Source: Actinomycetota bacterium (GTDB taxonomy: Bacteria; Actinomycetota; Thermoleophilia; Solirubrobacterales; Solirubrobacteraceae). From it: DNA of 64,000 bases. The stretch spans positions 1 to 64,000 of the forward strand of contig VAYS01000026.1 in the NCBI GenBank assembly GCA_005883215.1. Reading direction: 5' to 3'. This document shows, one piece after another, positions 38,672-47,803 of this stretch. The translations under genes and the position numbers were made by a program. A model generated the notes under the pieces. The model ran no database searches. It had not been told where the DNA came from and saw only the letters and a list, made by a program, of their open reading frames with translations. Position 1 is the stretch's first letter. Every line of letters starts with the position of its first letter.

Positions 38672-38713
38672 TGGAGCCAGCCGGAATCGAACCGGCGACC
38701 TCCTGCTTGCAAA
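38672..38713 (-). repeat. 3' fragment of tRNA-Ala(UGC), att-site copy
   Basis: The 42 nt are identical to 45013-45054 of the intact tRNA-Ala gene and run from the encoded CCA end through the T arm to the anticodon loop, where identity stops at TTTGCAA. The anticodon loop is a common crossover site for tyrosine recombinases, so this is the expected remnant of an attachment site. It is the left limit of the islet region. Confidence 0.85.
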
Positions 38714-38815
38714 TTGAGCTGGGGCAGTTTCCAGATCGTTTCCACGTCGTCTAGTCCCTTCCGGTCGAGCACTCGGCCTTGCCCGATTAGACGCCGCGCT
38801 CGGCGCACCCCGGAT
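38714..38815 (-). pseudogene. Probable integrase 3'-end relic
   Basis: Immediately right of the tRNA fragment, the minus strand can be read as QGRVLDRKGLDDVETIWK, continuing into LPQLNLQ across the att core without a stop. The ET(I/F)WK tail recurs in the relic at 42074-42121 and near 39690. Integrase genes of tRNA-targeting elements usually end next to attP in this orientation. The assignment is inferred from position and the repeated tail; no catalytic residues remain. Confidence 0.4.
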
Positions 38816-38838
38816 CCCGCTCAGCGATCATTGCGGCG

Positions 38839-39579
38839 ATGCTCCGTTCCGGCCAGCCGATCCAGCGCAGCGCCGCCCTTGTCGTCCCGCTGGCGATCCT
38901 CGTCGGCGGTGCCGTCGGCTGCGGGGGATCAGCGGGGGCTGGCCAGCGCGCCCGCAGCAGTAAGACGACCGCCGCGGGGCAGGTGGCGAAATCGGGGGCG
39001 ACAAGCGCAAAGCCGGCCTCGCAGGACGCAACGGCCAGGGTGGATGCGTCCTCGGACGCAGCGCTGGCGGCGAACCCATCGCTGATCGCGCCGGGAGCGC
39101 CGTCAGACGCCGAGATCCGGCGAGAGATCAAGGAGGCTCGCAAGGCGGGAATCGCTCTGCCGTCCGGGGACACGGCCGCGTCCTTCCAGAACTCGGCCTC
39201 CGGCAGCGCGGTCGCTGCCAGAGGCGCCGTGCCGGGCGGGGCTGAAATACCCGGTGCGATCTGGAATCCCCGCTTCCAGCCGATTGCGGACTGGATCGTT
39301 CCCGTTCTGCAGTGGGCTCATATGCACGGTTGGACGGGAACCGTCACGAGTGGCTATCGGACTTACGCCGAGCAAGCCTTGCTCAACGCGGCCGGCAGGT
39401 TCAGCGCTCCGGCCGGGTACAGCAATCACGAGTTCACCAGCTATCCCGGCGGGGCGGTGGATGTGACAAATCCGTCGCAGCTGCTGAGCGTGCTCACCGG
39501 CTACCCCGGTCCTCAGAAGCTCGTGGGGGGAGTTCTGGGGCCGGTCGACCCCGAGCATTTCTCCGCCACCGGCCGCTAG
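38839..39579 (+). CDS. M15/VanY-type D-Ala-D-Ala carboxypeptidase-like lipoprotein
   Basis: The head has a signal ending in VGGAVGCGG, followed by a Ser/Ala/Thr-rich linker to about residue 130. The catalytic domain shows TVTSGYRTYAEQALLNAAG, YSNHEFTSYPGGAVDVTNPS (zinc His and Asp) and DPEHFS (third zinc ligand), the M15 peptidase pattern. It would act on peptidoglycan or be a binding variant. It lies inside the left islet and is cargo-like. Confidence 0.78.
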   Translation: MLRSGQPIQRSAALVVPLAILVGGAVGCGGSAGAGQRARSSKTTAAGQVAKSGATSAKPASQDATARVDASSDAALAANPSLIAPGAPSDAEIRREIKEARKAGIALPSGDTAASFQNSASGSAVAARGAVPGGAEIPGAIWNPRFQPIADWIVPVLQWAHMHGWTGTVTSGYRTYAEQALLNAAGRFSAPAGYSNHEFTSYPGGAVDVTNPSQLLSVLTGYPGPQKLVGGVLGPVDPEHFSATGR

Positions 39580-40260
39580 CCGCGCCCCTCTTGCGGTTGC
39601 CACTGGCTGCCAAACGCCGGGCTAGCCGGGGCGAAGCCGCTCGACGGCCACATCTGTCTTGCCCCGGTTGCTGCCGCTGGTTTCCAAATCGTTTCCGGGC
39701 TTGAGCGCCCTCGCTTTGGCCCAAGCATCAGCGGCGTCCACTATGCGCTTTCCCACCAGCGGAAGGGACTGTACGGAGAGGTAGGGTGCTGCTAGCGGTG
39801 TCGGTGCCTGGTGCGAAGGACGCACAGCGCTTTGATCACCTGGCTGCGTGCGTAGCCACCTGTGGGGGATCAAGGTTCACATCGGCGCCGACGTTTGGGG
39901 TTGGTAGGGGAGTTGATGTCGGCGTTGGAGTTGGCATGCGCCGGCGGCGACACGGTGCTCGAAGCGCTCGGTGGGCCAGCGACGGTGTAGTGGAAAGTCA
40001 TCGTGGCGCCCTGCCGTCGGTGCTGGTCGCGGTCACCGCTAACGCGCGGACTCTGCCATGGGGCGCCCGTCCGGTCGCTCTCTGCTGTAAAACGGGGCAT
40101 ACGCGCCCGGCCCTGCGACTCGACTGGTAGCTGAGCTGCGTCCGTGCACCATAGCCAGCCGCCGTGAGCGTCAACGATCAGATATGGCTGCCGTGCGCGC
40201 CGCGGCGATGTCAGACTGGGTGTTGACGTACACCGAGGATATTGGTAGGTAGGGGCCGCA
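39580..40260. other. Gene-poor stretch with a third ETIWK relic and short repeats
   Basis: No convincing gene is seen in 680 bp. On the minus strand around 39666-39720 the sequence reads SPETIWKPAAATG, close to the other two integrase-like tails, and the nucleotides TTTCCAAATCGTTTCC at 39681-39696 recur with one difference at 38728-38743. GGTTGCCACTGG at 39595 and GGTTGCTGCCGCTGG at 39666 resemble repeats at 41985-42009 and 42067-42080. No tRNA fragment is found beside this copy. Confidence 0.45.
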
Positions 40261-41883
40261 ATGCTGCGTGCTGCTCATCATCTGTCCCGCATGAGGGCGC
40301 GGCTGCTGTTGTCCTGCACCGCGGTCATGGCCCTGTGCGCCGTGGGCATGTTTGGGCCAACGGGATCGCCATTGATGACAGTGGCGAGCGCCCGGCCGCT
40401 CATTAGTGCCCCTCCCCAAATGCTCAACCAGGCCCGCCAGCCGTGCGTCTTGTACAGCTGCGCCACAAACCCGCGGCTCCATCTCGACTACCAGCGCTCG
40501 CTACCCGGTGCTCGTTACTGCCAGCTGTATCCCTGCAGCCCCCCGATGGATCTGGTGCCCAACAACGGCTTTGACGACAACCTCTTCCCGCTTAATCCCG
40601 ACTGGGCGTACTTCGTTGAGACCGGGCAGCCTCCCGATGCGAACCGACTCTGTAACGAGTTTAAGTATGTGGGGGGATCCCCGTTAGGCTCGCCCCCGTG
40701 CACGAGCCAGCCGGTTGACCGCGACGGGGCTGGGGGAGCGACCAATCGTATTTGTGCCAGAGGCCGCAAGCCCCACTCCGCTTACCACGGCCATGTCAAC
40801 TTTGAGCCCGCGACTTACGAGGGAAGCCTCGCCTGGGACACTCACTCAAACTCTGTCTACGACGATGACGATTACGGCCTGCAACTTCACACCGTCAACG
40901 CCCATGGCGCTACCGCTGCCAATCCACCCGGCACGATCCATCTCGAGTTCAACTCCGATGAGACGATCGACAACTTCGACAATAGCCCGTGGTGGAAAAG
41001 GTTCCATAGCGCGGTTGACGGGAGCGATGCCAGGGCTCGGCAGGTCATCGACGGGCATCTGGCGGAGGTCACTGGCCTGGTGGGGCTCGACACGGCTCAC
41101 ACTCCGGCGGCGGAGTCCCATCCGGTGTATGCGATGGCCATCCGGACCTTCCGTAAGGTGGCCACCTCGGGCGTGCTGGCCGGCAAGGACCAGTGGTCGT
41201 TCTTCGCGCGAAGCTGGGGCGACGAAGGCTACTGCAGCCAGCACAACCACACGCTTCCGCCCGGCCGGCTGACCGTGCGGATTCCCTGGCTTGTAGGCAG
41301 GCGCGGGACCAGCGCTGTGCCCGAGCCCGCGAGCGGCGTGAAGATCGTAGGAATCGACGACGTTTGGCGTACCGTCAGCTCGGGCGTGACGGAGATCTCC
41401 GTGCTCAAGGGCGAAGGCGTGCTGCTCACGTTCGATCTCTCGGCCCCCACGTCCAAGCATCCTCTCTACTTCGGCACGATCGGCCTTCAGTGGACGTTCG
41501 CGCCACCGCCAACCAGTCGATCGACCGCGGCCAGCGCTCCACCTGTGACCCCGCGCAATAGCGCACGAGCGGCCCGGAGCAGGAAGAACCCGGACATCGA
41601 GGTGCAGGTCGAGCGCCTGTGGAAGCGCCTGCCGCAAAGAGTGCGCTCAACCGCGCGCGCGTTGCTACGCCGTCCGCGACTCACATTGCCCAAGCGACGG
41701 CTGAGGCCGCGCATGATCGAACCGCCGCTCTCCCCACAGCGCGCGATGGATGCGTTTGTCGCCCCTCGGCTCGACCCGCGCGTGATCGCCCGAAGCACGG
41801 CACAAGGTCGGGCTCTCTGTCGCGCGTACAAGAACCGCGTGCCAGGTTACCCGGGCATATGCCCACATGCGCGCCGCAAATAG
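40261..41883 (+). CDS. Large secreted protein of unknown function (540 aa)
   Basis: An N-terminal export segment (LLLSCTAVMALCAVGMFG) is followed by Cys-containing segments (PCVLYSCATNP, YCQLYPCSPP), a beta-rich domain (YHGHVNFEPATYEGSLAWDT, GTIHLEFNSDETIDNFD, YCSQHNHTLPPGRLTVRIPW) and a long basic C-terminal tail. The family is not recognised. Codons use A and T at third positions more often than neighbouring genes do, which fits a transferred gene. It fills most of the left islet. An internal ATG at 40291 is an alternative start. Confidence 0.65.
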   Translation: MLRAAHHLSRMRARLLLSCTAVMALCAVGMFGPTGSPLMTVASARPLISAPPQMLNQARQPCVLYSCATNPRLHLDYQRSLPGARYCQLYPCSPPMDLVPNNGFDDNLFPLNPDWAYFVETGQPPDANRLCNEFKYVGGSPLGSPPCTSQPVDRDGAGGATNRICARGRKPHSAYHGHVNFEPATYEGSLAWDTHSNSVYDDDDYGLQLHTVNAHGATAANPPGTIHLEFNSDETIDNFDNSPWWKRFHSAVDGSDARARQVIDGHLAEVTGLVGLDTAHTPAAESHPVYAMAIRTFRKVATSGVLAGKDQWSFFARSWGDEGYCSQHNHTLPPGRLTVRIPWLVGRRGTSAVPEPASGVKIVGIDDVWRTVSSGVTEISVLKGEGVLLTFDLSAPTSKHPLYFGTIGLQWTFAPPPTSRSTAASAPPVTPRNSARAARSRKNPDIEVQVERLWKRLPQRVRSTARALLRRPRLTLPKRRLRPRMIEPPLSPQRAMDAFVAPRLDPRVIARSTAQGRALCRAYKNRVPGYPGICPHARRK

Positions 41884-41929
41884 GACGAAGGCCACCCCGG
41901 CTGGCGTCAGCAGCAGGGTCGTCGGCGGA

Positions 41930-41971
41930 TGGAGCCAGCCGGAATCGAACCGGTGACCTCCTGCTTGCAAA
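41930..41971 (-). repeat. 3' fragment of tRNA-Ala(UGC), second att-site copy
   Basis: The same 42 nt as at 38672-38713 with a single change (GGTGACC for GGCGACC), again ending at the anticodon loop. It lies between the two islets, so it is the right end of one and the left end of the other. The flanking sequence beyond the loop is unrelated to the tRNA 5' half. Confidence 0.85.
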
Positions 41972-41984
41972 ACGGGTAGGGAAC

Positions 41985-42080
41985 GTTGCCGCTGGTTGCC
42001 GCTAGTTGCTATCGGCCGGCATTCCGGTGCTTTTCCACACCGATCGCGCTCGTGGGTTTGCGGCTCGTTGCCACTAGCAG
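41985..42080. repeat. Short direct repeats near the att core
   Basis: GTTGCCGCT-GGTTGCCGCT-AGTTGC at 41985-42009 and CGTTGCCACTAGCAG at 42067-42081 are iterated variants of GTTGCCRCT. Similar units occur near 39595 and 39666. Clustered short repeats beside a recombination core are typical of integrase arm-binding sites; that reading is inference. Confidence 0.45.
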
Positions 42081-42121
42081 GTTCCAGATCGTTTCCAGAA
42101 CGTTTCGTCGATGACCCTCAC
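42074..42121 (-). pseudogene. Probable integrase C-terminal relic
   Basis: The minus strand reads VRVIDETFWKRSGTC then a TAG stop at 42074-42076, about 100 bp from the tRNA fragment. It overlaps the stop of the dehydrogenase gene, so its upstream part has been replaced. The tail matches the ETIWK relics at the other copies. A complete tyrosine recombinase would need about 350 more codons, and none are present. Confidence 0.45.
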
Positions 42122-42981
42122 GTCCGCTTTCTGAGCAGCTCGACGACCGCGCCGATGTCGGCGTCCGCCCACCCTTGGGCGGACGCTTCCTCGAAGCACT
42201 GCTTCACGACGTCGGCGAGCGGCAGCAGTACCCCGTGCGACCGGGCGAGGTCCCCGGCCAACCGGACGTCCTTGGCCCCGAGCGTCGTCGTGAACCAGCC
42301 GTCATGGTCGCCCGAGACGATGTCGTCGAGCCGGTTATGCAGCGCGGGAGCGACGAGTGGCAGCTGACCAAAGTAGTCGCGGATGAGCTCGTCGGGCAGC
42401 CCCACCGCCTGAGCCGTCGCCACGGTCTCAGCGAGGGTGGCGATCCCGGACATGAGCAGGTAATTGGAGAGCAGCTTGAGCGTCGTCGCCACGCTCGCGT
42501 CCTCGCCTACGTAGACATGACGTCCCGCCTCGACGAGCACGCTGTAGGCCGGCGCCAGCCGATCGTAGAGATCGCGGGGACCACCGATCAGGTACCCGGC
42601 TGCGCCCGAGACGACAGCTGTCGGTGAGCCGAGGATCGGCGACGCGAGCAGACGTCCTCCGACCGCCTCGGAGAGATCCGCCGTGGTGTCTGGGGACACA
42701 GTGCTCGCGTCGATAAGAACGCCGTCGCCGAGGCCGGCAGCCACTCCGTCCGGAGCCGTGACGACGCCGCGCACGGCAGCGTCGTCCGCGAGCGAGGTGA
42801 ATGTCGCCTCGGTTTCCTCAGCCGCCGCAGTAGGAGTCGCCGCTTCTCGGGCGCCCTTGGCGACGAGATCGTCGGCCTTGTGAGGGGTCCGGTTCCATAC
42901 GACGACTTCATGACCGCCGCTGAGCAGGCGCTCGGCGACTGCGTGGCCCATTCTTCCCATCCCCAGCACGGCAAGGCGCAT
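42118..42981 (-). CDS. NAD(P)-dependent beta-hydroxyacid dehydrogenase / imine reductase-like protein
   Basis: A 287-residue protein with Rossmann motif LAVLGMGRMGHAVAERLLSGGHEVVVWNRTP (Arg after the strand favours NADP), the substrate loop IDASTVSPDTTADLSEAVGG and the all-helical half with TTLKLLSNYLLMSGIATLAE, where the lysine aligns with the catalytic Lys of the family. It belongs to the 3-hydroxyisobutyrate dehydrogenase / GLYR superfamily. It is cargo of the right islet. Substrate unknown. Confidence 0.85.
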   Translation of the reverse strand: MRLAVLGMGRMGHAVAERLLSGGHEVVVWNRTPHKADDLVAKGAREAATPTAAAEETEATFTSLADDAAVRGVVTAPDGVAAGLGDGVLIDASTVSPDTTADLSEAVGGRLLASPILGSPTAVVSGAAGYLIGGPRDLYDRLAPAYSVLVEAGRHVYVGEDASVATTLKLLSNYLLMSGIATLAETVATAQAVGLPDELIRDYFGQLPLVAPALHNRLDDIVSGDHDGWFTTTLGAKDVRLAGDLARSHGVLLPLADVVKQCFEEASAQGWADADIGAVVELLRKRT

Positions 42982-43012
42982 CGTCAGGCTCGTTCACCTG
43001 GTCGCATTGGCC

Positions 43013-43654
43013 TCATCGCTCGTCGCGCTGGGTGGTATCTGCATAGATCGCGAGCCAGGCAGTGCGTGCGAGCTGTCTCGAGAACGCTGGGTCGTGTCGC
43101 GGGGCGCGGGCGCGGACGTGCTCGGCGACGCTGCGCTCCACCGACCAGACCACGATGAACGCGGTGGAGCGTGGGTCGACCTCGGGCGCGACGCGACCGC
43201 TGCGCTGCTCCGCCTCGAGCTGCCCTCGCATGTATTCGGCGTACCCGTCGAGGCGCTGGCGCCAGAACGCCGCGACCGCTTCGTCGTAGCCCGCGACCTC
43301 CGCCACCGCGCCAAGGACCGCGGCGTGGCGCCTGTAGATCCGGGTCATGCGCAACATCACCTCGGCCAGCGGTCCGGTTCCACCCGAGTGGTCGTGCTCC
43401 CACCAGTCGTCCGACGCCGCAAACAGCTCGTCTGTGGCCCGCGCCGCCAGTCGGATCAAGAGGTCTGACTTGTCGCTGAACTGGACGTAGAAGGTGGAGC
43501 GCGCCACACCGGCCGCGCTCGCGATCGACTCCACGGCGAGCTCGGTGAATCGGCGGCCGTCACGCAACAGCGATTCGGTCGCCTCGAGCACACGGAGTTC
43601 CGCCGCGGCGCGGCGCTCGCGGTGCCCAGATGGGGGGCGGGTGACGCTTGACAT
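43013..43654 (-). CDS. TetR-family transcriptional regulator
   Basis: The HTH reads VLEATESLLRDGRRFTELAVESIASAAGVARSTFYVQFSDKSDLL. The ATG at 43654 (MSSVTRPPSG) lies 31 bp from the divergent P450 start. The C-terminal ligand domain is normal length. The shared spacer contains a perfect palindrome at 43678-43692, so it probably represses the P450 gene and its own. Confidence 0.88.
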   Translation of the reverse strand: MSSVTRPPSGHRERRAAAELRVLEATESLLRDGRRFTELAVESIASAAGVARSTFYVQFSDKSDLLIRLAARATDELFAASDDWWEHDHSGGTGPLAEVMLRMTRIYRRHAAVLGAVAEVAGYDEAVAAFWRQRLDGYAEYMRGQLEAEQRSGRVAPEVDPRSTAFIVVWSVERSVAEHVRARAPRHDPAFSRQLARTAWLAIYADTTQRDER

Positions 43655-43692
43655 CTTCCCTTGGCCGTACATACTGTCGGACATAGTGTCCG
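43648..43692 (+). promoter_or_regulatory. P450 promoter with overlapping TetR-type operator
   Basis: TTGACA at 43648-43653 and CATACT at 43670-43675 (16-bp spacer) form a good -35/-10 pair on the plus strand. The perfect palindrome CGGACA-TAG-TGTCCG at 43678-43692 covers the expected transcript start and contains the P450 GTG at 43686. A bound repressor would block initiation, and the mRNA would be leaderless or nearly so. Confidence 0.65.
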
Positions 43693-44957
43693 AAGGCAAG
43701 CTGGGTGTCCGGACGGCGCCGGTCGATCTGTCTGCGCACAGCTTCTGGGAGCAGCCCCAGGCCGCGCGCGAGCGTGCGTTCGCGCGGCTCCGGGCAGACG
43801 CCCCGGTCTCCTGGCAAGACCAGCCCGAGAGTCCGCTCGTGCCGACCGAAGGGCTGACGGGCGGATACTGGGCGGTGGTGCGCCACGCCGACGTGCGGGC
43901 GATCTCGCGCGACCCGAAGACCTTCTGCTCGGGCCGCGGGGTGATGTTCGAGGATGCGCCGCAGGAGTTCCTCGACGCTACACAGTCGTTTCTGCCGATG
44001 GACGATCCCCAGCACGCCAAGCTCCGGGGGCTCGTCCAGAAGGCGTTCGCACCGCGCCATGTGCGCACGCTCGAGGACGGCATCCGCGCCGACGCGCGCG
44101 TGATCGTCGACCAGCTCGAGGCCGGCGCCACCGGTGATTTCGTCGAGCGGGTGGCCAAGCGCCTACCCCTGATGACGATCATGCGCATGCTCGGGGCGCC
44201 CGAGGCCGACCACGAGCGCCTCGTGGCGCATGCGGACACGCTGGTCTCCTGGAACGACGCCGAGCTCCTCGCCGGGCGCGAGCCCCTAGCGGTGATCGGC
44301 GAGGCGATCGCCGCTCTCCACGAGGCCGCCACCGCGATCGCCGCCGATCGGCGCCGGCACCCGGCCGGCGACCTGGTCACCGCACTGGTCGGCACCGAGG
44401 TGGACGGGGCGCGGCTGACCGACTTTGAGATCGCCTCCTTCTTCGTCCTGCTCTCGGTCGCCGGCAACGACACGACGCGCCACACCACATCCCGGGCGAT
44501 CAGGGCACTGTGCGACTTCCCCGACCAGCGAGTGGCGCTCCTGGACGACATCGAGGGACGCCTCGATACCGCCGTCGAGGAGTTCGTCCGCTGGGCCTCC
44601 CCGGTGATGACCTTCCGCCGCACGGCCACCCGCGACGCAGAGATCGCGGGCCAACCGGTCACCGAGGGCGACAAGGTGGTGCTCTTCTACCCCTCGGCGA
44701 ACCGCGACGAGGCCGCTTTCCCGGAGCCCGATCGCTTCGACGTCATCCGCGATCCCAATCCCCACGTCGGCTTCGGTGGTGGCGGGCCGCACTACTGCAT
44801 TGGGGCAGCGATCGCCCGCGCCCAGCTGAAGGCGCTCTTCACCGAGCTCCTGAGTGCCTTCCCGCAGCTCGAGGTCGGCGAGCCGCGCTACCTGGTGGGC
44901 AACTTCGTCAACGCCATCTCGGCGATGCCCATGGACGCCGGACCGCGGCGCAACTGA
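43686..44957 (+). CDS. Cytochrome P450
   Basis: A 423-residue P450 resembling actinobacterial CYP124/125/142-type enzymes that hydroxylate sterol or lipid side chains: head DLSAHSFWEQPQAARERAFARLR, FLPMDDPQHAKLRGLVQKAFAP, I-helix VLLSVAGNDTTRHTTSRAI, FRRTATRDAEIAGQPV and haem loop HVGFGGGGPHYCIGAAIARAQL. The GTG at 43686 lies inside the palindrome, 11 bp after the -10 box. It is the last gene before the tRNA-Ala target and cargo of the right islet. The substrate class is inferred from family resemblance. Confidence 0.9.
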   Translation: MSEGKLGVRTAPVDLSAHSFWEQPQAARERAFARLRADAPVSWQDQPESPLVPTEGLTGGYWAVVRHADVRAISRDPKTFCSGRGVMFEDAPQEFLDATQSFLPMDDPQHAKLRGLVQKAFAPRHVRTLEDGIRADARVIVDQLEAGATGDFVERVAKRLPLMTIMRMLGAPEADHERLVAHADTLVSWNDAELLAGREPLAVIGEAIAALHEAATAIAADRRRHPAGDLVTALVGTEVDGARLTDFEIASFFVLLSVAGNDTTRHTTSRAIRALCDFPDQRVALLDDIEGRLDTAVEEFVRWASPVMTFRRTATRDAEIAGQPVTEGDKVVLFYPSANRDEAAFPEPDRFDVIRDPNPHVGFGGGGPHYCIGAAIARAQLKALFTELLSAFPQLEVGEPRYLVGNFVNAISAMPMDAGPRRN

Positions 44958-44987
44958 GTCTTGTCGGACAGGCGGCCGGCGCCGGGA

Positions 44988-45008
44988 TGGCGCCAGCCGG
45001 GATCGAAC
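44988..45008 (-). repeat. Imperfect copy of the tRNA-Ala 3' end
   Basis: Just outside the intact tRNA, 21 nt (TGGCGCCAGCCGGGATCGAA plus C) match the last 21 nt of the tRNA gene at 45013-45033 in 19 positions. On the minus strand it gives a T-loop-like GTTCGATCC and an acceptor ending in CCA. It is probably an eroded earlier attachment-site copy. Confidence 0.6.
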
Positions 45009-45012
45009 TCGA

Positions 45013-45085
45013 TGGAGCCAGCCGGAATCGAACCGGCGACCTCCTGCTTGCAAAGCAGGCGCTCTCCCAACTGAGCTATGGCCCC
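45013..45085 (-). tRNA. tRNA-Ala (anticodon UGC)
   Basis: On the minus strand the 73 nt fold as a full cloverleaf: acceptor GGGGCCA paired with TGGCTCC, D arm with AGCTCAGTTGGGAGAGC, anticodon stem CCTGC/GCAGG with loop TTTGCAA, and T arm CCGGTTCGATTCCGG. CCA is encoded. The anticodon TGC reads alanine codons. It is the intact target whose 3' half is repeated at 41930 and 38672. Confidence 0.97.
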
Positions 45086-46966: not shown

Positions 46967-47803
46967 CTACTTGTCGAAGTCGAAGTCGCGCGGGGGGCGC
47001 TGCTCGAACCAAAGCCGATCGTGCTCTGGCGTCTCCTGGAGGAATTCCGGGGTCTCCTCGAGGACGTCTTCGCCCTCGCCTTCTTCGTGCTCGGCGTCGC
47101 CCGGAGGCGGCGGTGGGTGGGGCGGCTGCTCGCCACCCGCCTCGGCGGGGGGCTCGTCTGCGGACTCGGGCTCGACGTGGGCGGGGGGAGGCGGCGGCTC
47201 GGCGGGGTGCGGGGTAGCCGGCGCAGCGGCGGGCGGTGGAGTCTGGGAGGCTGGAGGCTCGGCGGGGGCCGGCGGAGGCGGGGGGGCCGGCGCCGGCGCC
47301 TGGGGTGGGTAGGACGAGGCCGCGTCAGCGGCCTCCTGATAGTGGCCCGCCTCGACGTCGTACTCGACCGTCTCGGGACCAACCTGGCCCATCCCGGGGT
47401 CGGCTGCCGGCGGCTCGGCGGCGGGCGCGTGCTCGGCGGGCTCGCCAAAGCTCTCCTGGCCGGGGATCGGCTCGGGGGGGGCCACCGCCTCCTCGGGCCA
47501 GGGCTCCTCCTCGGGGGTGGCCGCCGGATGCAGGAGGGTCTCCGCGTCGCCGGGGGGAGCCTGCTCGAGTCCCTCGACGGGGACCGGGGCGCCCCCCGCA
47601 TCGTCCGTAAGCGCTGCGGGCGGATATGGCTCGGCCTCGGCCTGGGTCCCGCCGTTCTCGCCGGCGGGTGGGGGTGTCCCCTCGATCGGGGTTCGCACGG
47701 GCCCCAGCGCCTCGCGCTCCTGCCGGGCGATCTCGGTCGCGTCCGCACCCCGCCGCCGCTTGAGCTCCAGGTGCTCGCGGATGGCGTCGTCGAGCTGTCC
47801 CAT
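46967..47803 (-). CDS. Conserved protein with structured ends and a Pro/Glu/Ala-rich middle
   Basis: The N-terminus MGQLDDAIREHLELKRRRGA is a basic amphipathic helix, and the C-terminus LQETPEHDRLWFEQRPPRDF ends in DFDK. The 200 residues between are low-complexity Pro/Ala/Glu. Structured ends with a disordered linker suggest a scaffold or adaptor whose two ends bind partners; that is inference. The gene lies 12 bp downstream of the membrane GGDEF gene and may be co-transcribed with it. Confidence 0.7.
   Translation of the reverse strand: MGQLDDAIREHLELKRRRGADATEIARQEREALGPVRTPIEGTPPPAGENGGTQAEAEPYPPAALTDDAGGAPVPVEGLEQAPPGDAETLLHPAATPEEEPWPEEAVAPPEPIPGQESFGEPAEHAPAAEPPAADPGMGQVGPETVEYDVEAGHYQEAADAASSYPPQAPAPAPPPPPAPAEPPASQTPPPAAAPATPHPAEPPPPPAHVEPESADEPPAEAGGEQPPHPPPPPGDAEHEEGEGEDVLEETPEFLQETPEHDRLWFEQRPPRDFDFDK

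Follow-up and report, generated by a model that had tools for sequence, protein, structure and literature searches.

How did a single tRNA-Ala(UGC) gene come to be followed by two further copies of its own 3' half, with small groups of genes between them and no recombinase gene among those? The gene lies in the window, by which we mean the whole 64,000-nt stretch analysed here (positions 1 to 64,000 of contig VAYS01000026.1, our C22, in assembly GCA_005883215.1), part of a 3.29-Mb draft genome of a member of the Solirubrobacterales (54 contigs, 92.9% complete). We conclude, at a probability of about three in four, that the tRNA-Ala(UGC) gene is an accretion hotspot for tyrosine integrases and that the islets in the window are non-autonomous remnants resembling cis-mobilizable elements (CIMEs). 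The parts of the locus are as follows.

45013 to 45085, minus strand: intact tRNA-Ala(UGC) gene (ARAGORN, anticodon TGC; Rfam RF00005, 73.9 bits)
45013 to 45054, minus strand: 42-nt core within the intact gene, from the anticodon loop to the 3' end
41972 to 45012: islet 1, 3041 bp, without recombinase
41930 to 41971, minus strand: displaced tRNA-Ala 3' half, 41 of 42 nt, border between islets 1 and 2
38714 to 41929: islet 2, 3216 bp, without recombinase, probably composed of 2b (38714 to 39594) and 2a (39595 to 41929)
38672 to 38713, minus strand: displaced tRNA-Ala 3' half, 42 of 42 nt, outer border of islet 2

Both displaced halves lie in direct orientation downstream of the tRNA 3' end (E-values against the genome of 2e–15 for the copy at 38672 and 4e–14 for that at 41930), and in both the match to the tRNA ends at TTTGCAA, that is, at the first base of the anticodon loop. 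This agrees with a sequence-only reading made earlier of the same DNA, which had reported two direct 42-nt copies each cut at the anticodon loop, with islets of about 3.1 and 3.3 kb between them. The arrangement, an intact tRNA gene with a direct, displaced 3' fragment downstream that starts at the anticodon loop, is that of a tRNA-gene (tDNA) island. The genome held no further fragments of tRNA-Ala(UGC), the remaining matches being full-length or isoacceptor tRNAs. The 41930 copy has a lone mismatch (G to A, read in the tRNA sense) that unpairs a position of the T-stem, a change to be expected once a copy is released from selection as tRNA; the intact gene would be the attachment site restored by the youngest integration.

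Is this arrangement peculiar to one genome? Our comparison covered 232 genomes of the order, none of them of the same genus, and so works at the level of family and order. The core pattern was present in 156, and by hand count (with other tRNA-Ala isoacceptors excluded) about 40 carried more than one copy. Islets were delimited only where one contig carried both the fragment and the tRNA (or an inner fragment), giving 25 islets in 20 genomes, 1.8 to 49 kb long and including the window's two; one, in genome G025, sits on tRNA-Ala(CGC) with an equivalent cut. In all 25 the fragment is direct and lies 3' of the tRNA or of the inner fragment. Over 40 distinct fragments (window included), agreement with the tRNA is 0.93 where the core begins, falls to 0.55 and 0.65 at the two preceding positions and is less farther out. 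Genome G146 (L122-L126, G146:C5:300000-399999) has four islets of 49, 3.9, 5.7 and 1.9 kb stacked on one tRNA-Ala(UGC) gene. Most of these loci are the same chromosomal locus, as judged from a conserved neighbour:

46967 to 47803, minus strand: 278-aa protein, conserved 5' neighbour of tRNA-Ala in the order, a synteny marker and not cargo

Homologues of this gene lie 5' of the tRNA at 26 of the 31 intact-tRNA loci (window included, one locus counted twice), on the same strand in all but one; two of the five loci that lack it are on contigs ending within 340 nt. (A GGDEF neighbour was dropped as a marker because it is too widespread.) The common cut in 40 fragments, the conserved 5' neighbourhood and the differing cargo strongly support what the sequence-only reading had proposed, namely successive site-specific integrations at a repeatedly used hotspot, and an identical gene order across relatives was not seen.

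Two explanations that do without integration can be weighed at this point. The fragments, being direct repeats, might be tandem duplicates of the tRNA gene that have since decayed, and a short tandem relic of its 3' end does adjoin it:

44988 to 45012, minus strand: degenerate second copy of the tRNA T-arm and acceptor 3' end, 19 of 22 nt, abutting the 3' side of the intact tRNA

This relic may have arisen by tandem duplication on the spot, or may be what is left of another islet, since deleted. Duplication alone, however, would have to produce fragments that lie kilobases apart and end, here and in relatives, at one and the same anticodon-loop base, and it would have to do so where 10 of the 25 equivalent islets carry a tyrosine integrase; we give it almost no weight. 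Hardly more credible is an assembly artefact, in which unrelated pieces of a metagenome assembly were joined at 42-nt repeats. The draft state of the genome speaks for it, whereas three clustered blocks of a repeat class confined to the locus (described below) speak against it, as does the same structure in independent assemblies, some of them single contigs or very long ones (G134, G060, G178, G025). A repeat of 42 nt also falls below the larger k-mer sizes that assemblers commonly use, which again counts against an artefact.

The ten integrase genes in the islets include two that are frameshifted (G157:C37 and G149:C163) and one that is a fragment; the other 15 islets, the window's two among them, have none. 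Since integrase-bearing islets include small ones, of 1.8 and 2.5 kb, and some of the integrases are frameshifted, stages of integrase decay are visible across the islets. The open integrase genes either start near the fragment (G140, G155, G001) or end against the tRNA (G002). An integrase is absent from six of the seven stacked islets that start at a fragment, compared with nine of the 18 next to the tRNA, a difference that is not significant at these numbers and gives only a hint of decay with age in the stacked, presumably older islets.

We propose that tyrosine integrases cross over at the anticodon loop of tRNA-Ala(UGC), and that each integration would rebuild the tRNA with the 3' half that the element brings along while displacing the old half downstream. 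At least two, and probably three, such rounds would have occurred in the window, by integrases of one arm-site class; small integrase-bearing elements would then have lost the integrase, keeping cargo, cores and one arm block. Such remnants would be mobile only if a tRNA-Ala(UGC)-specific integrase recombined their outer sites. Several observations weigh against this account. Islets 1 and 2 gave no Pfam or NCBIfam match to a tyrosine integrase and, with profile hidden Markov model (HMM) filters off and in tblastn with the relatives' integrases, no integrase remnant either; this bears out the earlier claim that they lack an integrase, and it leaves no trace of the proposed loss. The last cargo gene stops only about 50 nt short of the next core in islet 1 and islet 2 alike, and deletions would need to have given the same outcome twice. 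No transfer or phage genes tie the islets to a given integrative and conjugative element (ICE), integrative and mobilizable element (IME) or phage, and no empty allele of the exact locus was seen in a comparison set without a genome of the same genus.

What links the islets in the window to one another is a set of repeats beside their borders.

41985 to 42107, plus strand: arm-type block of islet 1, with GTTGCC twice, GTTGCT, GTTGCC, GGTTCC and GTTTCC
38727 to 38743, plus strand: arm-type repeat GTTTCCAGATCGTTTCC beside the outer core
39595 to 39696, plus strand: third arm block, GTTGCC ... GTTTCCAAATCGTTTCC, with no adjacent core

To the right of each fragment the spacing from the core to the first arm repeat (GTTTCCAGATCGTTTCC or GTTGCC block) is exactly 13 nt, in islets 1 and 2 alike. 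The 18-mer arm repeat has four matches in the window where 0.03 are expected, and the rest of the genome adds a single one, with two mismatches, on another contig; the genome has practically no GTTTCC double repeat outside the tRNA-Ala locus. Because of their position and repetition, we read these repeats as most likely the arm-type sites of a tyrosine integrase. They are recognisable on the fragment side only, while cores are kept at both ends. Another reading considered for the GTTTCC block, as the tail of a lost integrase gene (its minus strand reads GNDLET), had only short open stretches as its basis.

The block at 39595 repeats the layout of the islet 1 block, with GTTGCC followed by a GTTTCC pair, 84 nt onward compared with 95 nt, and the core expected for it falls exactly at the present end of a VanY-like gene. 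We therefore read 39595-39696 as, probably, a damaged third border that divides islet 2 into two fused islets, so that the units are probably three. The order would be tRNA, islet 1, core, islet 2a, a lost core, islet 2b, core, chromosome. Islet 2 could instead be one unit, with the block an internal arm or a chance repeat and only two integrations at the locus. That no tRNA core was found beside the block favours this simpler count, which keeps an appreciable but lesser share of our confidence given the copied layout and the place of the predicted core site. Of the two integrations in the sequence-only reading, then, the stacking stands, and the number is probably one too low.

The cargo of the window islets comprises five genes.

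43683 to 44957, plus strand, islet 1: cytochrome P450 (PF00067)
43013 to 43690, minus strand, islet 1: TetR-type regulator (PF00440), divergent from the P450 gene
42118 to 42981, minus strand, islet 1: 3-hydroxyisobutyrate-dehydrogenase-like reductase (PF03446, PF14833)
40261 to 41883, plus strand, islet 2: 540-aa protein with a hydrophobic N-terminus and no known family
38839 to 39579, plus strand, islet 2: candidate VanY/M15-like D-Ala-D-Ala carboxypeptidase, with the motif SNHE..PGGAVDV..DPEHF conserved

In tetranucleotide composition islet 2 stands out from the other parts of the window (z up to 5.9), which counts in favour of integration. Its VanY-like candidate matches the Pfam VanY family at E = 0.006 only, below the cut-off. 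The 540-aa protein is probably exported, to judge from its N-terminus; its sole homologue in the 232 genomes is in G202, of another family, at 48%, and it has no solved relative. AlphaFold models of these two proteins, from two-sequence alignments, were useless (mean pLDDT of 35 and 30). Neither homologue that we followed lies between tRNA-Ala cores: that of the VanY-like protein, in G157, stands in an ordinary context with no tRNA core or arms, and that of the 540-aa protein is at a contig start with no core. A window-type arm does occur in G202 (C120, near a contig end), but it could not be linked to the homologue.

In relatives the islets carry other genes. Three that lack an integrase have candidate defence genes:

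L132, 5608 to 7634 (G132): NYN/HEC-09 candidate defence protein and HNH nuclease
L133, 9956 to 12534 (G134): HEC-09
L159, 5863 to 9661 (G178): PDC-M34A/B

Integrase-less islets of G146 encode a GH20 glycosidase and a histidine-kinase-like protein and, by reading of the proteins, a TetR/short-chain dehydrogenase (SDR) catabolic set; that of G025, on the same kind of reading, encodes a molybdenum-hydroxylase operon. Such unrelated cargo between islets is in keeping with a hotspot rather than with a fixed gene cluster.

The sequences flanking the core fall into several repeat classes across the order, X (GATCAAGCA type), Y (TTTGGGCAG..CTGCCCAAA), Z (AGGCACT..AGTGCC), T (TGGAAGC) and that of the window, and thus several integrase specificities seem to share one crossover. 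The G146 stack holds at least two of these classes, with an integrase in its inner 49-kb islet and none in the outer three. In five islets from two species (G146, G151), 92-94 nt separate the core from the class Y arm; an integrase was lacking from every class Y islet examined, several of which are cut by contig ends. Class T arms match at both ends of two small integrase-less islets from different species (G132, G134). In genome G157 a 23.5-kb islet that lacks an integrase is bounded on either side by class Z arms, and another islet of that class carries a frameshifted integrase gene. As a side observation, class Y occurs five times in G151 (L155, L156, L158, L196, L197), four of them 92-94 nt from a tRNA-Ala core, and none of these contigs carries an integrase.

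These classes bear on whether the islets lost an integrase at all, for they might be true satellites that never had one and were integrated and excised in trans by the integrase of an autonomous element that shares their arm class. The three arm blocks of one class without an integrase trace would suit this, as would the fixed gap of class Y, the paired arms of class T, the two class Z islets of G157, and the short stretch from cargo to next core in both window islets. Against it, each window islet has one recognisable arm, the cargo homologues lie elsewhere, and the excess of integrase absence in stacked islets, small as the numbers are, fits decay. The autonomous partner itself was also missing: we sought the cognate integrase by its arm pattern in the 232 genomes, and none for the window arm class was found in the islets' own genome, nor any at the tRNA-Ala target in about 85,000 species or in IMG/VR. 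The full core-plus-arm pattern had two matches in the former, both in unrelated bacteria, and none in the latter. We consider an origin as satellites unlikely. A helper integrase may sit in the missing part of the genome or in a neighbour cell; trans mobilisation of the window islets, which the sequence-only reading had suggested, is a hypothesis.

Stacked integrase-less islets are a known kind of genomic island, represented by CIMEs and by tandem tDNA and ssrA islands. The course from stacked integrations that displace the older half, through integrase loss, to a CIME has been described (PMC5704250). Like CIMEs, the window islets are stacked on one attachment site, lack integration and transfer genes and have cores at both ends (PMC5704250); they differ in having no recognisable link to an ICE or IME, one arm block each, units of 1-3 kb and a mobility that is only putative. 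The ssrA islands of Dehalococcoides form a tandem array in which 15 lack an integration module and were read as possible CIMEs (PMC3146451). They too stand in tandem behind one RNA gene, with direct repeats of its 3' end and the module in only some (PMC3146451), but use a serine recombinase and ssrA, whereas tyrosine recombinases (in relatives) and the anticodon loop of tRNA-Ala are used here. Islander found an anticodon-loop crossover in 2083 of 3919 islands (PMC4383910; Williams 2002 cited there), and its tDNA islands share with ours the intact tRNA, the displaced 3' fragment and that crossover (PMC4383910). Because it demands an integrase in each island (PMC4383910), the window islets, which have none, would escape it.

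The sequence-only reading had spoken of a cassette-like array. Clusters of attC sites lacking integron-integrases (CALINs) are likewise arrays of small recombinase-less cargo units, possibly served in trans (PMC11389934), but the borders here are 42-nt tRNA halves, paired in relatives with tyrosine integrases of the phage and island kind. No attC-like inverted repeat was seen at the islet borders, where no dedicated attC model was run, and no dedicated recombinase was found; the term holds as an analogy only. New here are the shared arm repeats 13 nt from the core, the core-less third block and the degenerate 22-nt copy that abuts the intact gene. The locus is a hotspot in a little-studied order at which most resolved islets (15 of 25) have no integrase and would be invisible to integrase-dependent island finders; among the cargo in relatives are HEC-09/NYN and PDC-M34 genes, candidates for a role in defence. 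Through the recurring arm classes, trans mobilisation becomes a testable question, with several arm-specific integrases, one crossover and same-class integrase-less islets as substrates. Speculatively, and with long odds against it, the tRNA-Ala half could serve order-wide as a shared attachment site for integrase-less cassettes of metabolic, candidate defence and cell-wall genes, which a few arm-specific tyrosine integrases would insert and shuffle in trans, a tRNA-based counterpart of cassette arrays.

The arm-pattern search also returned candidates that we set aside. Most matches of the GTTTCCAGAACGTTGCC type in one genus (L100-L106) were a conserved gene start and not attachment sites. Matches behind tRNA-Val, tRNA-Ala(GGC) and tRNA-Thr (G059, G064, G065, G087, G101) had no convincing fragment and no integrase on the DNA examined and are leads only. 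One match, in G149:C163, falls inside an islet on tRNA-Ala(UGC), where the frameshifted integrase gene ends; the remaining repeats there, TTGGCA, fit the window class poorly. Separately, GGAAACGATTTGGAAAC, of window type or similar, stands about 75 nt behind tRNA-Val, tRNA-Ala(GGC) and tRNA-Thr genes in other genera (L097 6888, L098 7199, L099 7253, L108 488), with neither a fragment nor an integrase close by.

No integrase of the window arm class turned up in the islets' own genome, whose remaining elements sit at different targets. One, of 11.9 kb, occupies contig C42:1220-13168 (L093) at tRNA-Arg(CCT), with an open integrase gene that ends about 10 nt from the tRNA and a 42-nt core repeated at 100%, an architecture like that of the tRNA-Ala islets, which speaks for the account of integration and integrase loss. 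A further integrase adjoins tRNA-Gly(GCC).

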